From: Elusimicrobiota bacterium
GTDB lineage: Bacteria; Elusimicrobiota; Elusimicrobia; FEN-1173
Assembly: GCA_016788905.1 (NCBI GenBank)
Contig: JAEURZ010000024.1
Coordinates: 1 to 42,823, forward strand
DNA: 42,823 nt
Reading direction: 5' to 3'
Of the stretch, positions 12,466-38,695 are shown one piece after another. The position numbers were made by a program, and so were the translations under genes. Position 1 is the first letter of the stretch, and the number at the start of each line of letters is the position of its first letter. Under the pieces are notes generated by a model that was not told the origin of the DNA, did not search any database, and saw only the letters and a program-made list of their open reading frames with translations.

Positions 12466-13566
12466 TTATTTTTCTATGAACCGAACGGGAGTGTTGGATT
12501 GGGGGATGACTTTGATGTGGTAGGGTTGGGTCATGACGGTTAAAAATCCTATGCCACCGGACGTATTGGGTTTCGTTTCTTGGTAAGTGATGATCCATTC
12601 GTTGTTTTCCTTATGCATACCAAGTATTCGGACACTGTAACCGCTGGATCCTCGGTCACCTAGGAAAATTCCAACAACCCTATAGTTATTGAAATTGATT
12701 TCAGGGGTGGGGGCAGGTGTTCCCATGGGGGACTGGTGTTCGGCCCATAGTTCGGCCCAAGATTTGGCGTCCCTAACGACGACTTCGCGGGGAATGGTGA
12801 TGCCGCTGTATTCTCCTGCCCACTCTTGAGCGGACGTCTCGAGCGGTGAACCGTCTTTTAGGGAGAGCGCCTGTTTGTTTTTGAGAGAAAGATCACTCGG
12901 CTTTCCTCTGGCGATCCCAAGATCGACGTCTTTTTTTGAAGAGGGGGCGGGCGCCATGGACGCTGGTTGAGGCGTTTGGAGAGTCTCTCTGGTGTTAAGT
13001 CCCTTTCTAGCCATGTCCTTTTCCAATACCAAGTCTTCCGCCTCTTGCAGGGGTAATAGTGAAGCATCTTGTCCGCGAAAAGTAGATTTGTCCCATGCTG
13101 TTTTTCTTTCCAGGAGTTTTTCTTTCGGTGAATGGACATCCTTGGAAAGAATTTGATTGGACACAAGGGATTCCCTTTGGGCCATTTCCTGAAAATCCAT
13201 GGTGCTCTGCAGCATGGCGGTGGCGGGAACCTGTTTTTCTTCCTTTTCTAAGGACAACGTGGGCTTTGAATCGTGGACGACATAAACCATAAGGAGGGCG
13301 GCCGCTGCCGCCCCGAGGAAAGAGAATGTCCATGTTCCCCATGGGCGCGGGCGATGTTTCACTTTTTTCAGGACGTTGGTAAAAAACTGTTCAGGTGGTT
13401 CGGGGAGGGGGCCCGATCGCAGGAGGCTTTTCAGTTGTTTGAGGTCGGCCAGCTCCTTTTGGAGTTTGGGTAACCCAGCGAGGGCACGCACAATAGAGGC
13501 CCTTTCCCCTGGAGCAAGGGCGTCATCGAGAAAGGCGGAGAGCTGTTCGTCTGTGATGTGGTTCAT
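12466..13566 (-). CDS. Membrane anti-sigma-like protein with C-terminal PrcB-like domain
   Basis: This 366-residue protein follows the ECF sigma gene with an ATGA overlap. Residues 1-70 (TDEQLSAFLDDALAPGER, then a helical stretch) resemble the N-terminal cytoplasmic domain of anti-sigma factors, but without the zinc-binding HxxxCxxC motif. One transmembrane helix lies at about 77-97 (TWTFSFLGAAAAALLMVYVV). A polar linker of about 150 residues follows. The last 120 residues match the PrcB C-terminal fold, with a WAELWAEHQ segment, then YRVVGIFLGDRGSSGYSVRI and a final MTQPYHIKVIPQSNTPVRF. PrcB was described as a partner of a spirochaete protease complex. The architecture suggests an exterior sensor/protease-partner domain linked to a cytoplasmic sigma-binding domain. 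Function is inferred from context. Confidence 0.8.
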   Translation of the reverse strand: MNHITDEQLSAFLDDALAPGERASIVRALAGLPKLQKELADLKQLKSLLRSGPLPEPPEQFFTNVLKKVKHRPRPWGTWTFSFLGAAAAALLMVYVVHDSKPTLSLEKEEKQVPATAMLQSTMDFQEMAQRESLVSNQILSKDVHSPKEKLLERKTAWDKSTFRGQDASLLPLQEAEDLVLEKDMARKGLNTRETLQTPQPASMAPAPSSKKDVDLGIARGKPSDLSLKNKQALSLKDGSPLETSAQEWAGEYSGITIPREVVVRDAKSWAELWAEHQSPMGTPAPTPEINFNNYRVVGIFLGDRGSSGYSVRILGMHKENNEWIITYQETKPNTSGGIGFLTVMTQPYHIKVIPQSNTPVRFIEK

Positions 13567-14147
13567 AGGTCCCTCAATAAGGGTGCCAACTGTTCCTTTA
13601 ACGTCGCACGGGCTCGGGCGATCCGGGATTTTACCGTTCCTAGGGGGAGGCCCAAGAGATCGGCGATTTCCTCGTAGGTTTTGTCTTCCATTTCCCGAAG
13701 CGTGAGGGCCGCCCTCTCATGGGGATCCAGCCCGGCCATGGCTTCCCGGACGTGCCGATGGCGTTCCGCCAATTCGGCAGGGGCGTCTGTCCGGTCTTTG
13801 GGGTCGGCGATTTCCATGGGACGGGGATCGTCATCGTCCTTATTCCCGCCAAAGAGTGAGATATGTTTCCAAAAAGAGCGGCGTTTTTCATAACGCACAC
13901 GGTTCTTCCATAGATTGACACAAATTCGATAGACCCAGGATCCGAAATCCGCTTCCCCGCGGAACTGGCCAAGGCGCCGGTAAGCTGTCAGAAACGTTTC
14001 CTGGGCGAGGTCTTCCCCATCGGACCTGTTCCCGCAGAGCCGAACCGATAGGGCGTAAATACGCGCGCCGTGTTGACGAAAGAGGGGTTCGAAGTCCCTT
14101 CCTTCAAGTTTAGACCCTGCTGAGCTTGAAAAGTTCCCTGATTCCAC
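13563..14147 (-). CDS. ECF-family RNA polymerase sigma factor (ECF1)
   Basis: A 194-residue group 4 sigma factor. Region 2 is visible around residues 23-90 (FEPLFRQHGARIYALSVRLC, then DLAQETFLTAYRRLGQFRG and FGSWVYRICVNLWKNRVR). Region 4 spans about 130-190, with LREMEDKTYEEIADLLGLPL and the helix-turn-helix end GTVKSRIARARATLKEQL. The start is a GTG at 14147; a ribosome site is not evident, so the first 15 or so polar residues are uncertain. The gene is the first of a minus-strand unit with an anti-sigma-like protein and the giant exported proteins, and it is divergent from gpmA. Confidence 0.93.
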   Translation of the reverse strand: MESGNFSSSAGSKLEGRDFEPLFRQHGARIYALSVRLCGNRSDGEDLAQETFLTAYRRLGQFRGEADFGSWVYRICVNLWKNRVRYEKRRSFWKHISLFGGNKDDDDPRPMEIADPKDRTDAPAELAERHRHVREAMAGLDPHERAALTLREMEDKTYEEIADLLGLPLGTVKSRIARARATLKEQLAPLLRDL

Positions 14148-24245: not shown

Positions 24246-25217
24246 TTAAAATCCTACGTAAACGCCGACGCCCAAGTAACGAATTTTTAGGTCAAAAAAT
24301 TGACCGTAGGGGGAATAGCCGTCGTAAAATTCCAGCAAGAGGCGCAAATGACGGTCTCGCATGGCGGGTTTTCCCATCTCAAGACCGGCTTTTGCGCTGA
24401 CATCAAATCCGTCCGGATGCTGTTTTTTCCACATCAGATCGAGACCCGCCACTGGTCGGAAGAAGGCGGGGGAGGCGCCTCCGCGCAATTCGGCGCCCGA
24501 ATGAATGTTCCATCTTTTTAAATAGGTGGGATCCCGGGACACCAGATACTCCGCACTTCCGTAAATTCGGTAGAGAGGGGTTTCCAAGGCCAAGACATTT
24601 TCCAACGCCTCGTAACTATAATTCAATCGTGGGATGGGATTGTGGAGGAGGAGTTCGTCACCCAAATGAGAACTTTGGTGGTAATATTGGAGACGTCCCG
24701 TCAAACGGCTCCATCGGTGGGTGGCCGCGACCCCAAAGGTGAAATCGGTGTTCAGGAGATCTTTTGAGGGGGTGCTCCAATCGAATTGGGAAAACACGCC
24801 GGCCAGAAAGCTCAATTGGGATTGGAAAGATTGTCCATCCCACCGGACCAAGCCCAAACTTTCTCCAAAACCAACGGACCAGGCGGTGTACGAATCGGTG
24901 GGGGTCTTCACACTGAGCATGCTCATAAAAAACTGTCGTTCTTTGGGGTCGGCCAGCAGAGGGCGGAAAACGTCGTTTGAGGGGAAAAAACGTAAACCAC
25001 CAGCCACTTTTGGAGGTTCCACGTCTGCCACAATGTCCGCCTGGATGGGTTGGCCGAGCGCTATGATCAGCATGAGGAGGGCGCCGAACAAGAAATTTCG
25101 GTTGCCCTGAGTGGGGAGACTTCGGTCGCGACGGGCCAAAACAAGAAACCCTTCCCCCCTCTGTCGTCGGAGATGGTCTGGGGAGATGAATGAGAGCCAA
25201 TTTTTCGTTGATAACAT
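24246..25217 (-). CDS. DUF1207-type outer-membrane protein
   Basis: A predicted outer-membrane protein of the DUF1207 family, 323 residues from the ATG at 25217. A hydrophobic signal (FLFGALLMLIIALGQPIQA) begins about 42 residues in, so the real start could lie further downstream, near residue 25-30. The C-terminal FYDGYSPYGQF and the final GVGVYVGF with a terminal Phe are typical of beta-barrels in this family. The ATG at 25217 is preceded by a purine-rich GGAGGAAGAAGAG; an extended TTG start at 25274 is less likely. One of three copies of the proposed ECF2 promoter lies upstream. Confidence 0.78.
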   Translation of the reverse strand: MLSTKNWLSFISPDHLRRQRGEGFLVLARRDRSLPTQGNRNFLFGALLMLIIALGQPIQADIVADVEPPKVAGGLRFFPSNDVFRPLLADPKERQFFMSMLSVKTPTDSYTAWSVGFGESLGLVRWDGQSFQSQLSFLAGVFSQFDWSTPSKDLLNTDFTFGVAATHRWSRLTGRLQYYHQSSHLGDELLLHNPIPRLNYSYEALENVLALETPLYRIYGSAEYLVSRDPTYLKRWNIHSGAELRGGASPAFFRPVAGLDLMWKKQHPDGFDVSAKAGLEMGKPAMRDRHLRLLLEFYDGYSPYGQFFDLKIRYLGVGVYVGF

Positions 25218-25301: not shown

Positions 25302-25331
25302 GGTAAGACGCGAAAATCGGAAAAAGGTTAC
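25302..25331 (-). promoter_or_regulatory. Proposed ECF2 promoter before the DUF1207 gene
   Basis: On the minus strand GTAACC begins at 25331 and CGTCTTACC follows at 25310-25302, a 16-base gap after GTAAC. It matches the two other sites (25381 and 28879) in both blocks. It points toward the DUF1207 gene. Confidence 0.55.
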
Positions 25332-25380
25332 AAAGATCCGGAACGGTGACGGAGGGCCCTCTTTCTGGTGTTCATCAGGA

Positions 25381-25408
25381 GTAACCCTTTCGTCATGGTC
25401 TGTGTCTC
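25381..25408 (+). promoter_or_regulatory. Proposed ECF2 promoter before sodB
   Basis: GTAACCCTTT at 25381-25390 and TGTCTCA at 25403-25409, 17 bases after GTAAC, share the form of the other two sites. It lies about 40-65 bases before the superoxide dismutase start. Confidence 0.55.
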
Positions 25409-25446
25409 ACTAGAGTCCGCATCCATGAAGTCCAAAGGAGAAACCT

Positions 25447-26100
25447 ATGAATGACACAAGTTCCAACCCGTATGCCACGTACAAAGTAAGACAAGATCTA
25501 AAGCCCAAGGATCTTGATGGCTTATCGGAGAAAGGGATCGATCAGCATTGGAAATTGTATGAAGGGTATGTGACGAACACCAATCTGCTCAATAAGTTGG
25601 TCTGGGATACGGCGGAGGCTGGCAAAGAATTGAACAATGCCGAGCACTCTGAGATCCAACGAAGGTTTGGCTTTGAATATAATGGCATGGTTCTGCATGA
25701 ATATTATTTCGGTGCGTTAAAGAAAGGGAGTGAATTGGCCCCCACTTCTCCGTTGATGACAAAACTGTCTGAGGATTTTAAAGGGTTTGAACGTTGGAAA
25801 AAACAGTTCATTCAGATCGGGAAATTTCGTGGCGTTGGATGGGTCGTCTTGAGCTATGATCCGTTGTTGAAACGATTAAATAACTTTTGGATCTCCGATC
25901 ATGAAGTGGGAAACGTGGCGGGGTTTGTGCCCATCCTTGTTATGGATGTGTGGGAACACGCCTACATCCTTGATTTTGGGGCCTTAGCGGCCGCCGGAGT
26001 TGGTCGGTCCGCCTACATTGAGGCTTATTTCAAAAACGTGAATTGGTCCGTGATCGAAGAAAGAATGACCAATGCCCTGACCCTTAAATCCAACCGATAA
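25447..26100 (+). CDS. sodB: Fe/Mn superoxide dismutase
   Basis: Converts superoxide to oxygen and hydrogen peroxide. The four metal ligands are His34 (IDQHWKLYEG), His84 (MVLHEYYFGA), Asp167 and His171 (VMDVWEHAYI). At 217 residues it has the usual two-domain length; metal choice (Fe, Mn or cambialistic) cannot be decided by reading. The start has GGAG eight bases upstream. The proposed ECF2 promoter ahead of it links oxidative defence to the sigma locus downstream. An 8-base dyad over its stop codon may help end transcription before the convergent regulator gene. Confidence 0.95.
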   Translation: MNDTSSNPYATYKVRQDLKPKDLDGLSEKGIDQHWKLYEGYVTNTNLLNKLVWDTAEAGKELNNAEHSEIQRRFGFEYNGMVLHEYYFGALKKGSELAPTSPLMTKLSEDFKGFERWKKQFIQIGKFRGVGWVVLSYDPLLKRLNNFWISDHEVGNVAGFVPILVMDVWEHAYILDFGALAAAGVGRSAYIEAYFKNVNWSVIEERMTNALTLKSNR

Positions 26101-26105
26101 GGGTC
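26079..26105. terminator. Dyad over the sodB stop, possible weak terminator
   Basis: GACCCTTA (26079-26086) and TAAGGGTC (26098-26105) are perfect complements with an 11-base loop, lying across the stop between convergent genes. There is no clear T-run after it. Confidence 0.3.
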
Positions 26106-26131
26106 TGGATTTCTCGGTTTGACGCTTTGGG

Positions 26132-26842
26132 TCAGAAAAGTTTAATAATAATCAATTCGCCGTTTGGTTCGTTATCTTCTCCGGGTAAGATGGTGCGGGT
26201 ATAGGTGATGGGGGCCGAACCGTTGGTTTTGGTTTTAAAGGAACCAGTTCCTTCCGATCCAGCGGGGGGGATGGGTTTCCCCTTTTCCTCTAACAGGTAA
26301 TCGGACAAGGGTTTGCCGAAAAGAGCGTCGGGGGTCCAGCCGGTCAATGTTTCGGCTGCCTTATTTATGAAAATGATCCGGTTCAGTCGGTCCGTGGCCA
26401 TGAGGGCGCCCGGCAAACTATGGAGAACGCGGGCGTGCCAACCGTCCATCTCGCTGACCACGCTTTCCATCATGTGGCGATGAATGGCCAACTCAAGGAC
26501 GGCTTGAAGGGATCTTGGTTCAAAGGGTTTTAAAATGTAGCCATAGGGCATTGTGGCTTTGGCTCGGTCCAGGGTAGGGGCGTCCGCAAAAGCGGTCAAA
26601 TAACTTACGGGTATGTTGTATTCGGCGTAGAGGTGTTCCGCCACTTCGATGCCGTCTTGGGGCCCTTGGATCCGAATGTCCATCAAAACGAGGTCCGGTT
26701 TTTGGCTTTTGACGCTCCGGAGGGCTTCTTCGCCGCTGGCGGCGATATCTGTCACCCCATACCCCATTTTTATTAACAGCCGTTTTAGGTCTTCCGCCAC
26801 GATGCGTTCGTCTTCCACGATCAAAATCCGTTTTCCCGTCAT
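26132..26842 (-). CDS. REC-PAS response regulator
   Basis: A 236-residue regulator with a receiver domain (residues 1-125: acidic pair Glu10/Asp11, phosphorylation Asp55 in LVLMDIRIQG, Thr83 in YLTAFAD and Lys105 in YILKPF), followed by a PAS domain (about 132-236). It has no DNA-binding or enzyme output domain, so it probably works by protein contacts or phosphotransfer. It overlaps the kinase gene by ATGA and is the last gene of the ECF2-kinase-regulator unit. Confidence 0.9.
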   Translation of the reverse strand: MTGKRILIVEDERIVAEDLKRLLIKMGYGVTDIAASGEEALRSVKSQKPDLVLMDIRIQGPQDGIEVAEHLYAEYNIPVSYLTAFADAPTLDRAKATMPYGYILKPFEPRSLQAVLELAIHRHMMESVVSEMDGWHARVLHSLPGALMATDRLNRIIFINKAAETLTGWTPDALFGKPLSDYLLEEKGKPIPPAGSEGTGSFKTKTNGSAPITYTRTILPGEDNEPNGELIIIKLF

Positions 26843-28101
26843 TGAATTCCTCCGTCATTGGGTGATCGTCCTGCGGGTTCTCTGAAAGTGAGGGTGAACC
26901 GAGTGCCGGGGTTGGTCTCCACCATTATTTTACCCCGCAATTGCTCCGTTAAAATTTGGACCAAGCGAAGTCCTAGGGATTCGGGAGAGTCAAAATCAAT
27001 GGGATGAGCCAACCCCACGCCTTCGTCCGCCACCGTGAGCTCGTAGCCTTCCCTTGGGAGAACCCGAAATTTCACAAAAATCGTTCCCTGCCGGCCGTCA
27101 GGGTAGGCGTATTTTAGTGCGTTGGAGACCAGCTCTGTAAGAATAAGACCGCACGGGATGGCGATGTCCAGATTGAGAGGCACCTTGTCCACGTCAAGCC
27201 GGAGCTGGATTTTATCCATATGGATGCTGTATGTGCGCAGCAGGTTATCGGTTAGCTTGTCGACGTAATCAGCGAAATCCATGCGCGCCAGGTCCGGTGA
27301 TAGGTAGAGACATTCGTGAATGATCGCCATGGACCGAACGCGGTTCTGACTTTCTAAAAAAATGGAAATGAGAGCTGGGTCTTGTATATTTTCCGACTGG
27401 AGACGGAGGAGACTGGAAATCATCTGCAAGTTGTTTTTGACCCGATGGTGGATTTCTTTCAGCAGGGCTTCTTTTTCGTGCAAAGACGCGGTCAGAGTGT
27501 CTTGTTCCTTTTTGCGACGGGTAATGTCTCGAAGCACCTGGGAGAACCCCAACAGCCCATTGTTTTTGTCCGTTAAAGGGGTTGTCACCATTTCTGCCCA
27601 AAAAAGGGATCCATCTTTTCGCGCTCGCCATCCTTGCTCTTCGTAAAAACCTTGGCGCGTGGCTTCCATAAATGTTCCCTGTAATTTCCCGGTCGTTTGT
27701 TCCTCAGGTGAGGAAAAACGCGAAATAGGATCGCCCAAGACTTCATCCGCTCGGTATCCGAAAATGTGTTCGGCGCCCGCGTTCCACGTGAGGATGCGGC
27801 CAGCCGGATCCACGAGGAGGACGGCGTGGTCTTTGAGGCTATTTACAAGAATGGTGTAACGGTCTTTGCTTTCGTTCAAGGACGTTTCAATGCGGAGGCC
27901 AATGACCGCGGCGCTTCGAAATGACAAATACAATATTGCAATCAGGGAGAGGAGGAGAATCAGCGAAGTGGAAAGCAAAAGAAATCTGTTTCCCAGGAAG
28001 AGGGGCGTCTTGTTGAGGGCGTAGAAAAAAAAGGCTCCGTTTATGAGAATCGATAAAAAAGCCAGTCCGCTGATCCATTGATTCAAGTGCCGTCCGCGCA
28101 T
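26839..28101 (-). CDS. Membrane PAS sensor histidine kinase of the HisKA_2 type
   Basis: A 420-residue kinase from the ATG at 28101, preceded by GGGGGAG; an upstream in-frame start at 28179 is less likely because it runs into the sigma gene. Two transmembrane helices at about 9-28 and 40-60 are separated by a short loop, leaving almost no exterior sensor. A PAS domain (about 80-198) is followed by HisKA_2 with the phospho-acceptor in KEIHHRVKNNLQM (His218/219) and a HATPase domain with TELVSNALKYAYPDG (N box) and DEGVGLA. HisKA_2/HWE kinases drive general stress signalling in some bacteria. It sits between the ECF2 gene and the regulator, with a 50-base gap to the sigma gene. Confidence 0.92.
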   Translation of the reverse strand: MRGRHLNQWISGLAFLSILINGAFFFYALNKTPLFLGNRFLLLSTSLILLLSLIAILYLSFRSAAVIGLRIETSLNESKDRYTILVNSLKDHAVLLVDPAGRILTWNAGAEHIFGYRADEVLGDPISRFSSPEEQTTGKLQGTFMEATRQGFYEEQGWRARKDGSLFWAEMVTTPLTDKNNGLLGFSQVLRDITRRKKEQDTLTASLHEKEALLKEIHHRVKNNLQMISSLLRLQSENIQDPALISIFLESQNRVRSMAIIHECLYLSPDLARMDFADYVDKLTDNLLRTYSIHMDKIQLRLDVDKVPLNLDIAIPCGLILTELVSNALKYAYPDGRQGTIFVKFRVLPREGYELTVADEGVGLAHPIDFDSPESLGLRLVQILTEQLRGKIMVETNPGTRFTLTFREPAGRSPNDGGIQ

Positions 28102-28150
28102 GAAATCTCCCCCTCTGCTACTGAGTGGGACGCGTTTATTCCTCTGAAGG

Positions 28151-28819
28151 TTACTGGGGGGATTCAAGGGAACCCCCAAAGTAAGTCGCCTGGAGATGTT
28201 TACGCGCGCGGTGGAGGTACACTTTCACTGTTCCTAGAGGTTTTTCCAGCTGTTGGGCGACCTCTTTGAGCGGCACGTGTTGGTAATAATGAAGAACGAA
28301 AATGGCGCGAAAATGGGGCGGAAGAGCATCGACGGCGGATCGAAGCTTCTCGGAATCTCTCTGCTGCGCCACGACTTCTTCAATGGGGGGGCCTTTCTCC
28401 GGGAGTTCCCAGCGGTGGGTCCCTTCCTCCGGAACGATGTCTAACGAGATGATGCGTCGTTTTCCGCGCCGTCTGATCTGGTTTCGGACACGGTTTAAAG
28501 CGATGGTGTAAAGCCAGGTGGAAAGCTTTGATTCGCCGCGAAAGCGGTTGAGATGGGCGTGGACGCTCATAAAAACTTCTTGCAGGACATCTTCCGCTTC
28601 CTCCCGCTGACCCAAAATACGACAGGCCATTTCCAAAAGAGGAGGTCGGTATCTTCTGACCAAAACGGCAAAGGCTGCCCCGTCACCAGCGAGGGTGGCC
28701 GTGATAAGTTCCTCATCCAGGGGTGGAACGGCCTCATTAAAATCCAAGTTAATCTCCCGGTGTTGCCACCAGGCTATTGGCCAATTCCCCGGCGCAACAC
28801 TGGTATCTCCTCTCATCAT
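28151..28819 (-). CDS. ECF-family RNA polymerase sigma factor (ECF2)
   Basis: A group 4 sigma factor of up to 222 residues. Region 2 is clear (FAVLVRRYRPPLLEMACRIL, then AEDVLQEVFMSVHAHLNRFRG and STWLYTIALNRVRNQIRRRG) and region 4 (LPPHFRAIFVLHYYQHVPLK, with GTVKVYLHRARKHLQ). The ATG at 28819 has no ribosome site; a TTG at 28747 preceded by GGGAG would remove 24 residues and is an alternative start. No anti-sigma gene is next to it; instead a histidine kinase and a REC-PAS protein follow. It is divergent from the barrel/OmpA cluster. Confidence 0.92.
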   Translation of the reverse strand: MMRGDTSVAPGNWPIAWWQHREINLDFNEAVPPLDEELITATLAGDGAAFAVLVRRYRPPLLEMACRILGQREEAEDVLQEVFMSVHAHLNRFRGESKLSTWLYTIALNRVRNQIRRRGKRRIISLDIVPEEGTHRWELPEKGPPIEEVVAQQRDSEKLRSAVDALPPHFRAIFVLHYYQHVPLKEVAQQLEKPLGTVKVYLHRARKHLQATYFGGSLESPQ

Positions 28820-28878
28820 AACTTAATGGTGTCATCCAGAACACCTGAAGCGTCGCAAATGTTTCATTCGTCCAGGGT

Positions 28879-28909
28879 GTAACCTTTCAAGAGGTTACGA
28901 CGTCTTATC
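28879..28909 (+). promoter_or_regulatory. Proposed ECF2 promoter before the barrel-OmpA cluster, with dyad
   Basis: GTAACC at 28879 and CGTCTTATC at 28901-28909 are separated by 17 bases after GTAAC, the same layout as the sites at 25331 (minus) and 25381. GTAACCT and AGGTTAC also form a perfect 7-base dyad at 28879-28898. It faces the outer-membrane gene at 28967. Confidence 0.6.
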
Positions 28910-28966: not shown

Positions 28967-29455
28967 ATGAATTCAACTTTATTCAGACGTTCGACTTCGC
29001 TGGTTCTTCTCCTGGGGATGGTGGGGGCGGTTTGGGCCGCGGGTCCTCAAGCGGGAAGTGCCGGGGATCTTGGTGTGGGGGTGATCGTAGGCGATCCAAC
29101 GGGTTTTTCAGCTAAGTATTGGTTGTCACGCACACGGGCGGTGGACCTCGCTCTGGCTTGGGATTTGTCCGGGAGCGAAGACCGGTTCGAGATCCACGCG
29201 GACCACCTTTGGCATTTTGACTTAGATCTATCGCGATTGCAGGGGCGAATGCCCCTCTATGTCGGGGTGGGTGGTCGTCTTCTGACCGGTCACGACGCGC
29301 GGTTGGGCGTACGCATTCCTTTTGGGGTCAGTTATATGTTCCCTCGGGTTCCGATCGAGTTGTTCGGAGAAATAACTCCTTTGGTTGACTTTACGCCGGA
29401 TACCGAAACTCGCGTAAATGCTGGGGCGGGCGTACGTTTCTACTTTAAAGGTTGA
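28967..29455 (+). CDS. Small outer-membrane beta-barrel protein
   Basis: This 162-residue protein has a signal peptide (LVLLLGMVGAVWA) and a body of short amphipathic strands, with DPTGFSAKYWLS near the start and a C-terminus GAGVRFYFKG. It resembles the DUF3996-like small barrels. GGAG lies eight bases before the ATG. It is the first gene of the cluster behind a proposed ECF2 promoter. The exact family is uncertain. Confidence 0.7.
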   Translation: MNSTLFRRSTSLVLLLGMVGAVWAAGPQAGSAGDLGVGVIVGDPTGFSAKYWLSRTRAVDLALAWDLSGSEDRFEIHADHLWHFDLDLSRLQGRMPLYVGVGGRLLTGHDARLGVRIPFGVSYMFPRVPIELFGEITPLVDFTPDTETRVNAGAGVRFYFKG

Positions 29456-29467
29456 AAAGGAGGGGCC

Positions 29468-29620
29468 ATGCTCTGGACAGTGTCTGTGGTATTACTGGTT
29501 TTATGGACGCTCGGTTTTGTAAGTTCAACCACGATGGGTGGATACATCCATATTTTGTTGGTGGCGGCGATCCTTTTGGTTCTTGTTCGCCTCATTCAAG
29601 GGCGCCGGATCGTGCAATGA
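29468..29620 (+). CDS. lmo0937-type small membrane protein
   Basis: A 50-residue protein: MLWTVSVVLLVLWTLGFVSS, then TMGGYIHILLVAAILLVLVR and a short basic tail. Two hydrophobic helices around a glycine turn match the lmo0937 family of tiny membrane proteins, often stress-associated and of unknown function. The ribosome site AGGAGG lies just upstream, so the start is sound. It begins 12 bases after the barrel gene stop. Confidence 0.85.
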   Translation: MLWTVSVVLLVLWTLGFVSSTTMGGYIHILLVAAILLVLVRLIQGRRIVQ

Positions 29621-29678: not shown

Positions 29679-31229
29679 ATGAATAAAATGTTGCTTGTCC
29701 TAAGCATGACCATCGTGTTCTTGACGTTTCAACATCAAAGTAACGCCGCGGAGGCCACCACAAAGCCGCTTTACAACGTCACGGTTGTACAAACACCCGC
29801 TCAAGCCATTAATTACCGGAATCTAAAAGGATCCGTGAAAATTGATTTCAAAGGCACGGTGCTTCTCCCCTCTGCAAAAGGCGAGGCCAAAGTTTGGAAC
29901 AAACGTGGTGAGACGAATATTAAAGCATGGTTTGAGAATTTGACACCGCCCCATCAGTTCGGGACCGAATACTTGACCTATGTCTTATGGGCGATTTCAC
30001 CGGATGGCAGGGCGACCAATTTGGGAGAGTTGATTATCGATGACGGAGAAAGTTCCTTGAGGGCGAAATCCTCGCTTCAAACATTGAGTCTGCTTGTGAC
30101 AGCCGAACCGTACTTCGCTGTTTCCCAGCCCAGCGATGTCGTCGTTTTGGAAAACGCCATCAAGCCAGACGAGGATGAGAAAATCTCATTAACAGAGGCG
30201 AAATACGAGTTGCTTCCCAGAGGACAATACACGAAAAACAACTCGGCCACGGACCGCCCACCGCAAAGGATGGACAAAGAGACACCTTTCTACGTCTACC
30301 AAGCCCGTAATGCCGTCCAGATTGCCAAAGCGTCCGGGGCCGAAAAGTATGAGGCGGATGGGTTCAAAAACGCCGAGAGACTTCTGACCCTATCGGAAAC
30401 GAAAGACGGCGGAAGAAAACACAGAATTAAGACAGCACGCCAAGCCGTCCAGAGCGCGGAAGACAGTCGTTCCCTTAGCCTCAAACGCCAATCCGCAGAG
30501 GGTTTAGCGACAGAACGGACACAGTCGGCACAGGAAATAATGAGCGCGAACACACAAGCCGCCAAAGCCACCGAGAGTCAGGCCCTAGCGGAAAAGGCTT
30601 TGGCCAAGGCGGAGCAAGCCATAGGGAAATCGGACACGGAACGGGCTGCGGCTATGGCTTTAGCAACGAGTGCCACCGCCTCCTCCACCAAAGCTCAAGC
30701 CGAAGCGGTCTCCGCTCGGGCCGCGGCTGAGGAAGCCAAAGGCCAGGCTGTGGATGCCAACAATCGGGCCGAAAGGGCTGAAGGGGATCAGGCTGTCCTT
30801 CGTGCACAGCTCTTGGAACAGTTAAACTCCGTTCTTCAAACACGAGATTCCGTTCGGGGTCTCATCGTCAATATGTCGGACGCTCTTTTCGAAACGGGAA
30901 GTTCGACGTTGGGGCAGGCCGTTCGAGAAAAATTGGCTAAGGTGGCGGGAATTGTCTCCTCTCATTCTGGTTTAAAATTGAATGTAGAAGGACATACCGA
31001 TAGCGTGGGGAGCCAAGCCTACAACCAGCAATTGTCAGAAAAAAGAGCCGAGTCCGCACGGGCTTATCTCGTCAAACAAGGCGTGGCATCGAATTCCATC
31101 AAATCCCAAGGATTTGGTGAATCCAATCCTATCGAATCCAACAAAACGACTGAAGGACGGCAAAAAAATCGCCGGGTGGAGATCGTTGTCAGCGGTGAAG
31201 CGATTGGGATATTGGCGCAAGCTCGTTAA
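29679..31229 (+). CDS. OmpA-like outer-membrane/peptidoglycan-binding protein
   Basis: A 516-residue exported protein. A signal peptide (LLVLSMTIVFLTFQHQSNA) is followed by a beta-rich region (about 30-160: INYRNLKGSVKIDFKGTVLL and FGTEYLTYVLWAISPDGRA), an alanine/glutamate-rich coiled-coil region (about 210-385), and an OmpA C-terminal domain (about 390-505) with VEGHTDSVGSQAYNQQLSEK and GQKNRRVEIV-type ending (GRQKNRRVEIV). The OmpA domain binds peptidoglycan and the coiled coil could span the periplasm. It closes the cluster and is followed by a strong terminator. Confidence 0.9.
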   Translation: MNKMLLVLSMTIVFLTFQHQSNAAEATTKPLYNVTVVQTPAQAINYRNLKGSVKIDFKGTVLLPSAKGEAKVWNKRGETNIKAWFENLTPPHQFGTEYLTYVLWAISPDGRATNLGELIIDDGESSLRAKSSLQTLSLLVTAEPYFAVSQPSDVVVLENAIKPDEDEKISLTEAKYELLPRGQYTKNNSATDRPPQRMDKETPFYVYQARNAVQIAKASGAEKYEADGFKNAERLLTLSETKDGGRKHRIKTARQAVQSAEDSRSLSLKRQSAEGLATERTQSAQEIMSANTQAAKATESQALAEKALAKAEQAIGKSDTERAAAMALATSATASSTKAQAEAVSARAAAEEAKGQAVDANNRAERAEGDQAVLRAQLLEQLNSVLQTRDSVRGLIVNMSDALFETGSSTLGQAVREKLAKVAGIVSSHSGLKLNVEGHTDSVGSQAYNQQLSEKRAESARAYLVKQGVASNSIKSQGFGESNPIESNKTTEGRQKNRRVEIVVSGEAIGILAQAR

Positions 31230-37381: not shown

Positions 37382-38695
37382 ATGGAAAACCTGTTGGAAA
37401 CAAAACTGGACCTCATAGCAAAGCGAGCCAAAGCGGAGCTGAAGACCCGGTTCACGACGTTGGCGCACCTGCTGAATGAAGAGACGTTGGCGGATTGCTA
37501 CGGCGAGCTGAAAAGGGGGAAGGCTCCTGGAATAGATGGAGTGAGCGTGGCGGAATAGGGGGAGGACCTTGAAGAGAAGCTGAAAGGGTTGGTGCGTCGG
37601 ATGAAGGCAAAGCAATACCGACCGCAAGCGGTGCGTCGAGTGTTTATCCCAAAAGGCAATGGAAAACTTCGCCCGTTAGGAATTCCTGCGGCGGAAGAAA
37701 AAGTTGTACAGAGGGGACTGACGCGAATCCTGGAAGCAATCTTTGAGGGGGACTTTCTGGACGTGTCCCATGGGTTTCGACCGGGGCGCGGGTGTCATGG
37801 TGCGTTGCAAACGTAGGACCGAATGGTCATGACGAAGCGCGTCAGCTACGTGATCGAGGTGGACATCAAAGGGTATTACGACCACCTTGACCACGGATGG
37901 TTGATGAAGTGCTTAGAGCAACGGATCGCGGACCCGAGCTTCTTAAGCCTGATTGTGCGAACGTTGAAGGCCGGGGGGATGGAGGAAGGAGTGCGGGGTG
38001 AGACGGAAATGGGGGCTCCCCAAGGGGGAATTGTTTCCCCGATTCTGTCGAACATTTACCTACACCACATTCTCGACCTCTGGTTTGAGCGAGAGCTAAA
38101 GAAAAGGCTGAAGGGGTATGCACAGCTCATTCGGTACGCCGATGACTTCGTCATCGGGTGCGAGTACGAATGGGAAGCGCAGGGGATCCTGGTGGAGCTA
38201 AAAGAACGCCTGAAGAAGTTCGGTTTGGAAGTGTCTGAGGAGAAGACCCGGATCGTAGAGTTCGGTCGGTTTGCCCAAGAGCGCGCTGAAAAGCGTGGCG
38301 GGAAGGCGGGCACGGTCGAATTTCTCGGGTTCACTCACTACTGCACGAAAAGACGGAGCGGGCGGTTCCTGGTGGGACGACGGACAAGCGGAAAGCGGTT
38401 GCGAGCGAAGCTGGTGGCCATGAACGAATGGCTGAAGGGCGTGAGGAACAGTCTTCCGTTGGCGGACTGGTGGAGGATTCTTCGCTGGAAGCGGAACGGG
38501 CACTCCCAGTATTATGGGGTCACGGGGAACTGGCGTGGGATCAGCCGGTTCCATCAGGAAGTGTTGAGGATGACCTGTAAGTGGTGGAACCGGCGCAGTC
38601 AGAAGCGGAGCGGTGACTGGGAAGAATTCCAGCGTCGCCTCCAGTGGAATCCGCTACCCCCACCGCGTCTTGCGCACATCCTTCGATTGGCCTAG
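37382..38695 (+). pseudogene. ltrA: Group II intron reverse transcriptase/maturase, broken by two in-frame TAG codons
   Basis: One reading frame of 438 codons runs from ATG 37382 to TAG 38695 and encodes a reverse transcriptase with no frameshift, but it contains TAG at 37556-37558 and 37814-37816. Around them the protein is well conserved: GKAPGIDGVSVAE, then [13 protein letters not shown]; and GCHGALQT, then TAG, DRMVMTKRVSYVIEVDIKGY. By family comparison the first TAG sits at a usual Tyr (single-base change) and the second at a usual Leu. The catalytic RYADDFVIG is intact, and the X domain and C-terminal NRRSQKRSG segment are present; an endonuclease domain is absent. TAG ends normal genes nearby, so this reads as a decayed gene rather than recoding. 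Confidence 0.88.

Follow-up and report, generated by a model that had tools for sequence, protein, structure and literature searches.

A putative stress and envelope regulon around an ECF sigma factor linked to a sensor kinase and a PAS-bearing regulator in Elusimicrobiota

The ECF2 locus and its promoter-like sites

The window analysed here is a stretch of 42,823 nucleotides on contig C24 of the genome of an Elusimicrobiota bacterium (G000; 2.5 Mb, 78 contigs, 99.85% complete). At its centre of interest lies a leftward operon-like set, in which the gene for the sigma factor ECF2 is followed by those for a sensor kinase and a response regulator (Table 1). The set is flanked on the left by sodB (+) and a DUF1207 gene (-), and on the right by plus-strand genes for barrel-like, lmo0937 and OmpA-domain proteins. 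ECF2 carries sigma-70 regions 2 and 4 only, the domain content of an ECF (group 4) factor, and scores 109.5 bits against TIGR02937 (cut-off 42.9). PhyK is the top NCBIfam match of the kinase, and the motif HHRVKNN can be read in the kinases of the window and of two related genomes (G045 and G009). In the regulator, the receiver is N-terminal and the PAS domain follows it; domain searches detected no DNA-binding domain. No NepR-like candidate ORF was seen at the locus between the sigma gene and its neighbours, an Rfam scan of the locus returned no RNA family, and the count of sigma-70-type promoters was not above that in shuffles. Elsewhere in the window, at 37823-38695, an ORF resembles by eye a reverse transcriptase of the group II intron type (YADDF motif).

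Table 1. Promoter-like sites and genes at the ECF2 locus (window coordinates)
Feature	Position	Strand	Elements or supporting evidence
Site 1, before DUF1207	25304..25331	-	-35 GTAACC, -10 CGTCTTA; GTAACCTTTTTCCGATTTTCGCGTCTTA
Site 2, before sodB	25381..25409	+	-35 GTAACC, -10 TGTCTCA; GTAACCCTTTCGTCATGGTCTGTGTCTCA
Site 3, before barrel-lmo0937-OmpA	28879..28907	+	-35 GTAACC, -10 CGTCTTA; GTAACCTTTCAAGAGGTTACGACGTCTTA
Site 4, before kinase	28126..28154	-	-35 GTAACC, -10 CGTCCCA; matrix scan; GTAACCTTCAGAGGAATAAACGCGTCCCA
DUF1207 protein, putative target	24246..25217	-	PF06727 4.9e-50
sodB, iron/manganese superoxide dismutase, putative target	25447..26100	+	PF02777 4.4e-22
Response regulator, PhyR-like receiver + PAS	26132..26842	-	Domain searches (Pfam, NCBIfam)
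PAS-HisKA_2-HATPase sensor kinase	26839..28101	-	PF07568 5.3e-30; HRVKN motif; hydrophobic N-terminal segments
ECF2 sigma factor	28151..28819	-	Sigma-2 and sigma-4 regions: PF04542 3e-18, PF08281 8.8e-16
Probable small outer-membrane barrel, putative target	28967..29455	+	ORF; no Pfam match
lmo0937 family small membrane protein	29468..29620	+	NF033488, 57.6 bits (cut-off 30)
OmpA-domain protein	29679..31229	+	PF00691 2.3e-24; orthologue-like proteins in G009 and G004

Four promoter-like sites are present at the locus. The initial annotation had listed three of them, and direct reading together with a pattern search found all three in place before the DUF1207, sodB and barrel-lmo0937-OmpA genes, the identities of which, the barrel gene apart, are confirmed by Pfam and NCBIfam matches; the list was nevertheless incomplete, as it missed a fourth site on the minus strand before the kinase gene. 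The form described for the first three also holds: they share GTAACCYTT and YGTCTYA, and the YGTC element follows GTAAC after 16, 17 and 17 nt in sites 1, 2 and 3, respectively. With an AAC-containing -35, a CGTC-like -10 and a gap of about 16-17 nt, the sites would class as ECF-type two-part promoters. The DUF1207 ATG (25217) lies 86 nt past the -10 of site 1, and a Shine-Dalgarno sequence and an ATG are found 37 nt downstream of site 2 and 59 nt downstream of site 3. The -35 of site 4 overlaps the TAA stop codon of ECF2, and a Shine-Dalgarno sequence precedes the kinase ATG, 24 nt past the -10. Among sites with a Shine-Dalgarno start within 80 nt, the start lies 23-66 nt past the -10.

Part of site 3 (28879-28898) forms a perfect inverted repeat, GTAACCT-TTCAAG-AGGTTAC, which puts a -35-like element facing the ECF2 gene. 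Autoregulation of the sigma gene through site 3 was considered and rejected, since the minus strand has no matching -10: no YGTC occurs there 16-17 nt past the inverted GTAACC, and the sigma gene is therefore left without a site of its own.

Frequency and position of the motif

A strict pattern, GTAACCN{14,17}YGTCTNA, was drawn from the first three sites. It has three matches in the window and none in 100 dinucleotide shuffles; the whole genome has four, three of them at the locus and the fourth on contig C19 within a 201-aa ORF. As the sites themselves gave rise to the pattern, such counts carry little weight alone, and tests in other genomes were used instead; the circularity is answered by the replication of the motif in those genomes. 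A broad pattern, GTWACCN{15,16}NGTCYNA, which was picked after some of its matches had been seen, has six matches in the genome, four at the locus and two in ORFs. Its genome totals are not above a reversed-pattern control in G000, G009 and G045, with G004 as the exception, so that the case rests on position. These totals speak for a chance resemblance in intergenic DNA, as does the selection of the motif by eye after the sequence had been seen. Nevertheless, we regard chance as extremely unlikely, given that not one shuffled window holds even a single strict site and that the motif returns at the orthologous place in independent genomes.

The initial annotation had proposed a genome-wide search for the motif. 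Three of the four strict matches fall at the locus; nine of the ten further matches to the looser GTAACN{16,17}YGTCT in G000 lie within long ORFs, and thus no wide regulon was found. One position on another contig (C17:8787-8812, L003; GTAACCCTTGCCTTTCATCGCCGTCT), in apparently non-coding DNA, is followed after 113 nt by a secreted-like ORF of 183 aa; its -10 is weaker, and it may be a fifth regulon member located away from the locus.

The preference of the sites for positions before genes over coding DNA, on which the initial annotation had staked its reading, was seen when genomes with and without the ECF-kinase-regulator module were compared. Relatives without the module hold 18 scattered strict matches, of which 16 are within ORFs longer than 150 aa and one is followed within 80 nt by a Shine-Dalgarno start, whereas the module genomes hold eight (G000 four, G045 two, G004 two, G009 none), five of them with such a start. 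The difference between module and non-module genomes, 7/8 against 2/18 non-coding, has a Fisher probability of 4e-4, and that for the Shine-Dalgarno start 4.5e-3; the numbers are small, ORF length stands in for coding and the contigs are incomplete.

Recurrence of the module and the motif in related genomes

Orthologous ECF-kinase-regulator clusters are also found in G004, G045 and G009, with ECF2 identities of 67% (same family), 49% and 46% (both other families), respectively. In a phylum-wide search with a five-sequence sigma alignment, G000, G004, G045, G009 and G019 scored 276-305 bits and the rest at most 153; the high scores are partly due to construction because the alignment contains the same five, and a search with a single sigma sequence ranks the same five genomes as the top five. 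Regulator orthologues (E<=1e-45) occur in 5 of 235 genomes of the class: the four strongest are in the four cluster-bearing genomes, and a weaker fifth is in G042. A contig search with ECF2, of limited sensitivity to distant copies, returned only relatives of at most 36% identity and no further copy of the module.

A matrix trained on the first three sites alone was run on ECF loci, with the 95% level taken from shuffled maxima. In three genomes its best match falls where the ECF gene ends, ahead of the kinase gene: G045 (17.0 versus 14.7 at the 95% level), G009 (17.5 versus 15.1) and G004 (16.0 versus 13.1). Site 4 is the top non-training match in the window (18.7 versus 16.5), and no match at the ECF locus of G019, G046 or G013 rose above the 95% shuffle level. 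In an alignment of the four genomes, the -35 either overlaps the end of the ECF gene or follows it closely in every case, reading GTAACC in G000 and G045 and GTTACC in G009 and G004. Between this site and the kinase gene, G009 and G004 hold a short frame with LP.WPYS..W.Y (L075 about 7120-6970 and L073 about 3810-3660, both on the minus strand), which by eye looks similar to the small membrane family DUF3309; it has no NCBIfam match, and no such frame is present in the window.

Beyond the kinase gene, the motif is found before further genes of the putative regulon. Both strict matches of the 1.9-Mb genome G045, found with the pattern made from the window alone, sit at the ECF-kinase-regulator cluster (chance about 1e-5), one before the kinase gene and the other before a gene for a 60-aa basic protein, followed by one for a 411-aa secreted protein. 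The broad pattern adds two matches that diverge from each other, ahead of two genes for small proteins; a match on contig C17 of G045 (L141), which falls within what resembles a cobalamin riboswitch leader upstream of a TonB-receptor-like gene, was read as a false positive. All five broad matches in G009 lie within 20 kb on one strand of the contig that also carries its ECF gene, and precede lmo0937-OmpA, Dps-like ferritin, TPR, GGDEF and kinase genes; the OmpA protein resembles that of the window by eye, and a weaker match precedes DUF883-ferritin-DUF1207. In G004, one site lies before a beta-barrel gene and then a PA2779-family gene, with Dps and OmpA-like genes further on, and other sites precede, among further genes, those for a BON-domain protein and a transglycosylase-associated membrane protein. 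The regulon is less clear in this genome because several matches have GTCC in place of GTCT and some lie inside ORFs; its genes are also split over contigs. The recurrent neighbours of the motif across genomes are DUF1207, lmo0937, OmpA and ferritin/Dps, and we use the name stress and envelope regulon because of the protein families involved.

Several of these sites have features of their own. At L127 (G009 C92:53885), L129 (G009 C92:57386) and L125 (G004 C22:4390) the next ATG is only about 3-7 nt past the -10, and the messages would be leaderless or nearly so if the sites are promoters and this ATG is the start. Back-to-back divergent pairs, like sites 1 and 2, precede genes for small membrane or secreted proteins at L140 4642-4701 and L142 5236-5366. 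Another site in G004 (L146 2276, minus strand) precedes the gene for a 249-aa protein, the start of which looks by eye like a diverged sigma factor; its first 130 residues have no Pfam match.

In all four genomes the two-part form, with its 16/17 spacing and YGTCYNA, is found upstream of a start codon. This bears on the alternative that the sites are operators, bound by an activator or repressor through a GTAACC-type half-site. Although the palindrome of site 3 is plain in the sequence and favours such a protein, the palindromic form is limited to that site and domain searches detected no DNA-binding domain in the linked regulator; together with the fixed spacing, this makes operators a very improbable explanation.

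A proposed circuit and its relation to known systems

The locus is very probably a real and so far undescribed regulatory circuit, because three related genomes show the pattern at the same position; the literature searched held no report on ECF factors of this lineage, nor on DUF3309 with sigma factors. Clusters of sites follow one ECF gene in four genera, and that ECF is therefore their likely reader: we infer that the sites are read by ECF2 itself and that transcription starts at them. The local ECF2 regulon proposed in the initial annotation thus gains in silico support from the motif at orthologous clusters in three other genera, with ECF2 as the presumed recognition factor. The sites might instead be promoters for another ECF of the genome, with ECF2 only a neighbour. 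G000 has five ECF-type matches, so at least four other ECF-like genes, and a GTAAC-type -35 is used by several ECF groups, e.g. that of Caulobacter sigma-F (PMC3511200). However, in four genera the site clusters track the ECF-kinase-regulator module, relatives with other ECFs lack such clusters, and no site lies near the ECF gene at 13563-14147; we therefore consider this explanation unlikely.

Our preferred reading is that ECF2 recognizes GTWACC-N15/16-YGTCYNA and, under the control of the kinase and regulator, transcribes the clustered genes and the kinase-regulator pair, which we hold to be highly likely. A stress signal would pass through the linked kinase and the receiver-PAS regulator and leave ECF2 active. 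Active ECF2 would then transcribe the superoxide dismutase, DUF1207 and barrel-lmo0937-OmpA genes and, from the site that overlaps its stop codon, the kinase-regulator pair. Since a site precedes the kinase-regulator pair and none precedes the sigma gene, feedback would run through the sensing pair and not the sigma gene, and could be either amplifying or damping. Many ECF genes are self-transcribed, and the lack of such a site before the ECF2 gene counts against the explanation. The regulator would act through protein contact, with either ECF2 or an unlinked anti-sigma factor as its partner; contact is favoured because the regulator has no detected DNA-binding domain. A more tentative suggestion is that the regulator touches ECF2 directly, and that this control involves no DNA binding, no sigma-mimic domain and no NepR-type anti-sigma factor; the sigma factor would in turn drive the kinase and regulator genes.

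A defined promoter motif would thereby be assigned to the sigma factor of an uncultured lineage, together with a list of targets, both testable in a heterologous host. Furthermore, the motif would join functionally uncharacterized small stress proteins such as lmo0937, DUF1207 and DUF883 into a single cross-genus stress regulon. As no anti-sigma factor was seen linked to the module and its regulator has no recognized DNA-binding or sigma-mimic output, the mechanism by which it is switched on is directly testable.

The module is a variant of two-component-controlled ECF systems, and it may work in a way related to PhyR-NepR-EcfG of Alphaproteobacteria or to SigE-CseBC. As in PhyR-NepR-EcfG, the ECF is linked with a HisKA_2/HWE-class HRxxN kinase, the receiver of the regulator is closest to that of PhyR in all four genomes, the putative targets are of the stress type, and the regulator genes appear to stand under the sigma factor's own promoter type. 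The first difference is in the regulator, which lacks a sigma-like domain and carries a PAS; only about positions 137-256 of the 258 in the PhyR model PRK09191, the receiver part, are matched. The second is in the promoter: the EcfG type is GGAAC..CGTT, whereas the sites here are GTWACC..YGTCYNA. Moreover, no NepR-like gene was seen near the locus, and the sigma gene has no site. EcfG systems show self-amplification, and their stress-response kinases have been described as carrying HRxxN (PMC8103513).

In the Streptomyces SigE-CseBC system (ECF39), the sigma gene is transcribed under a two-component system, and the ECF has no linked anti-sigma factor and is accompanied by a linked kinase and regulator (PMC8999054), the arrangement seen at the present locus too. 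Unlike in that system, the sites point from the sigma factor to the kinase genes and not to the sigma gene, and CseB-like action is implausible for a regulator without a DNA-binding domain. Lacking this domain and a sigma-like one, the regulator places the module neither within PhyR-NepR-EcfG nor with SigE-CseBC-like systems. The Caulobacter crescentus sigma-F promoter, GTAACC-N16-CGAA (PMC3511200), has the identical -35 and closely similar spacing, but the -10 here is YGTCYNA rather than CGAA, the regulators and targets are others, and the sites do not class as sigma-F promoters. The next best sigma relative, in G019, is 43% identical to ECF2 over most of its length; however, it is followed not by a kinase and a regulator but by an ORF whose start shows, by eye, a zinc-finger pattern like that of anti-sigma factors (HxxxCxxC).
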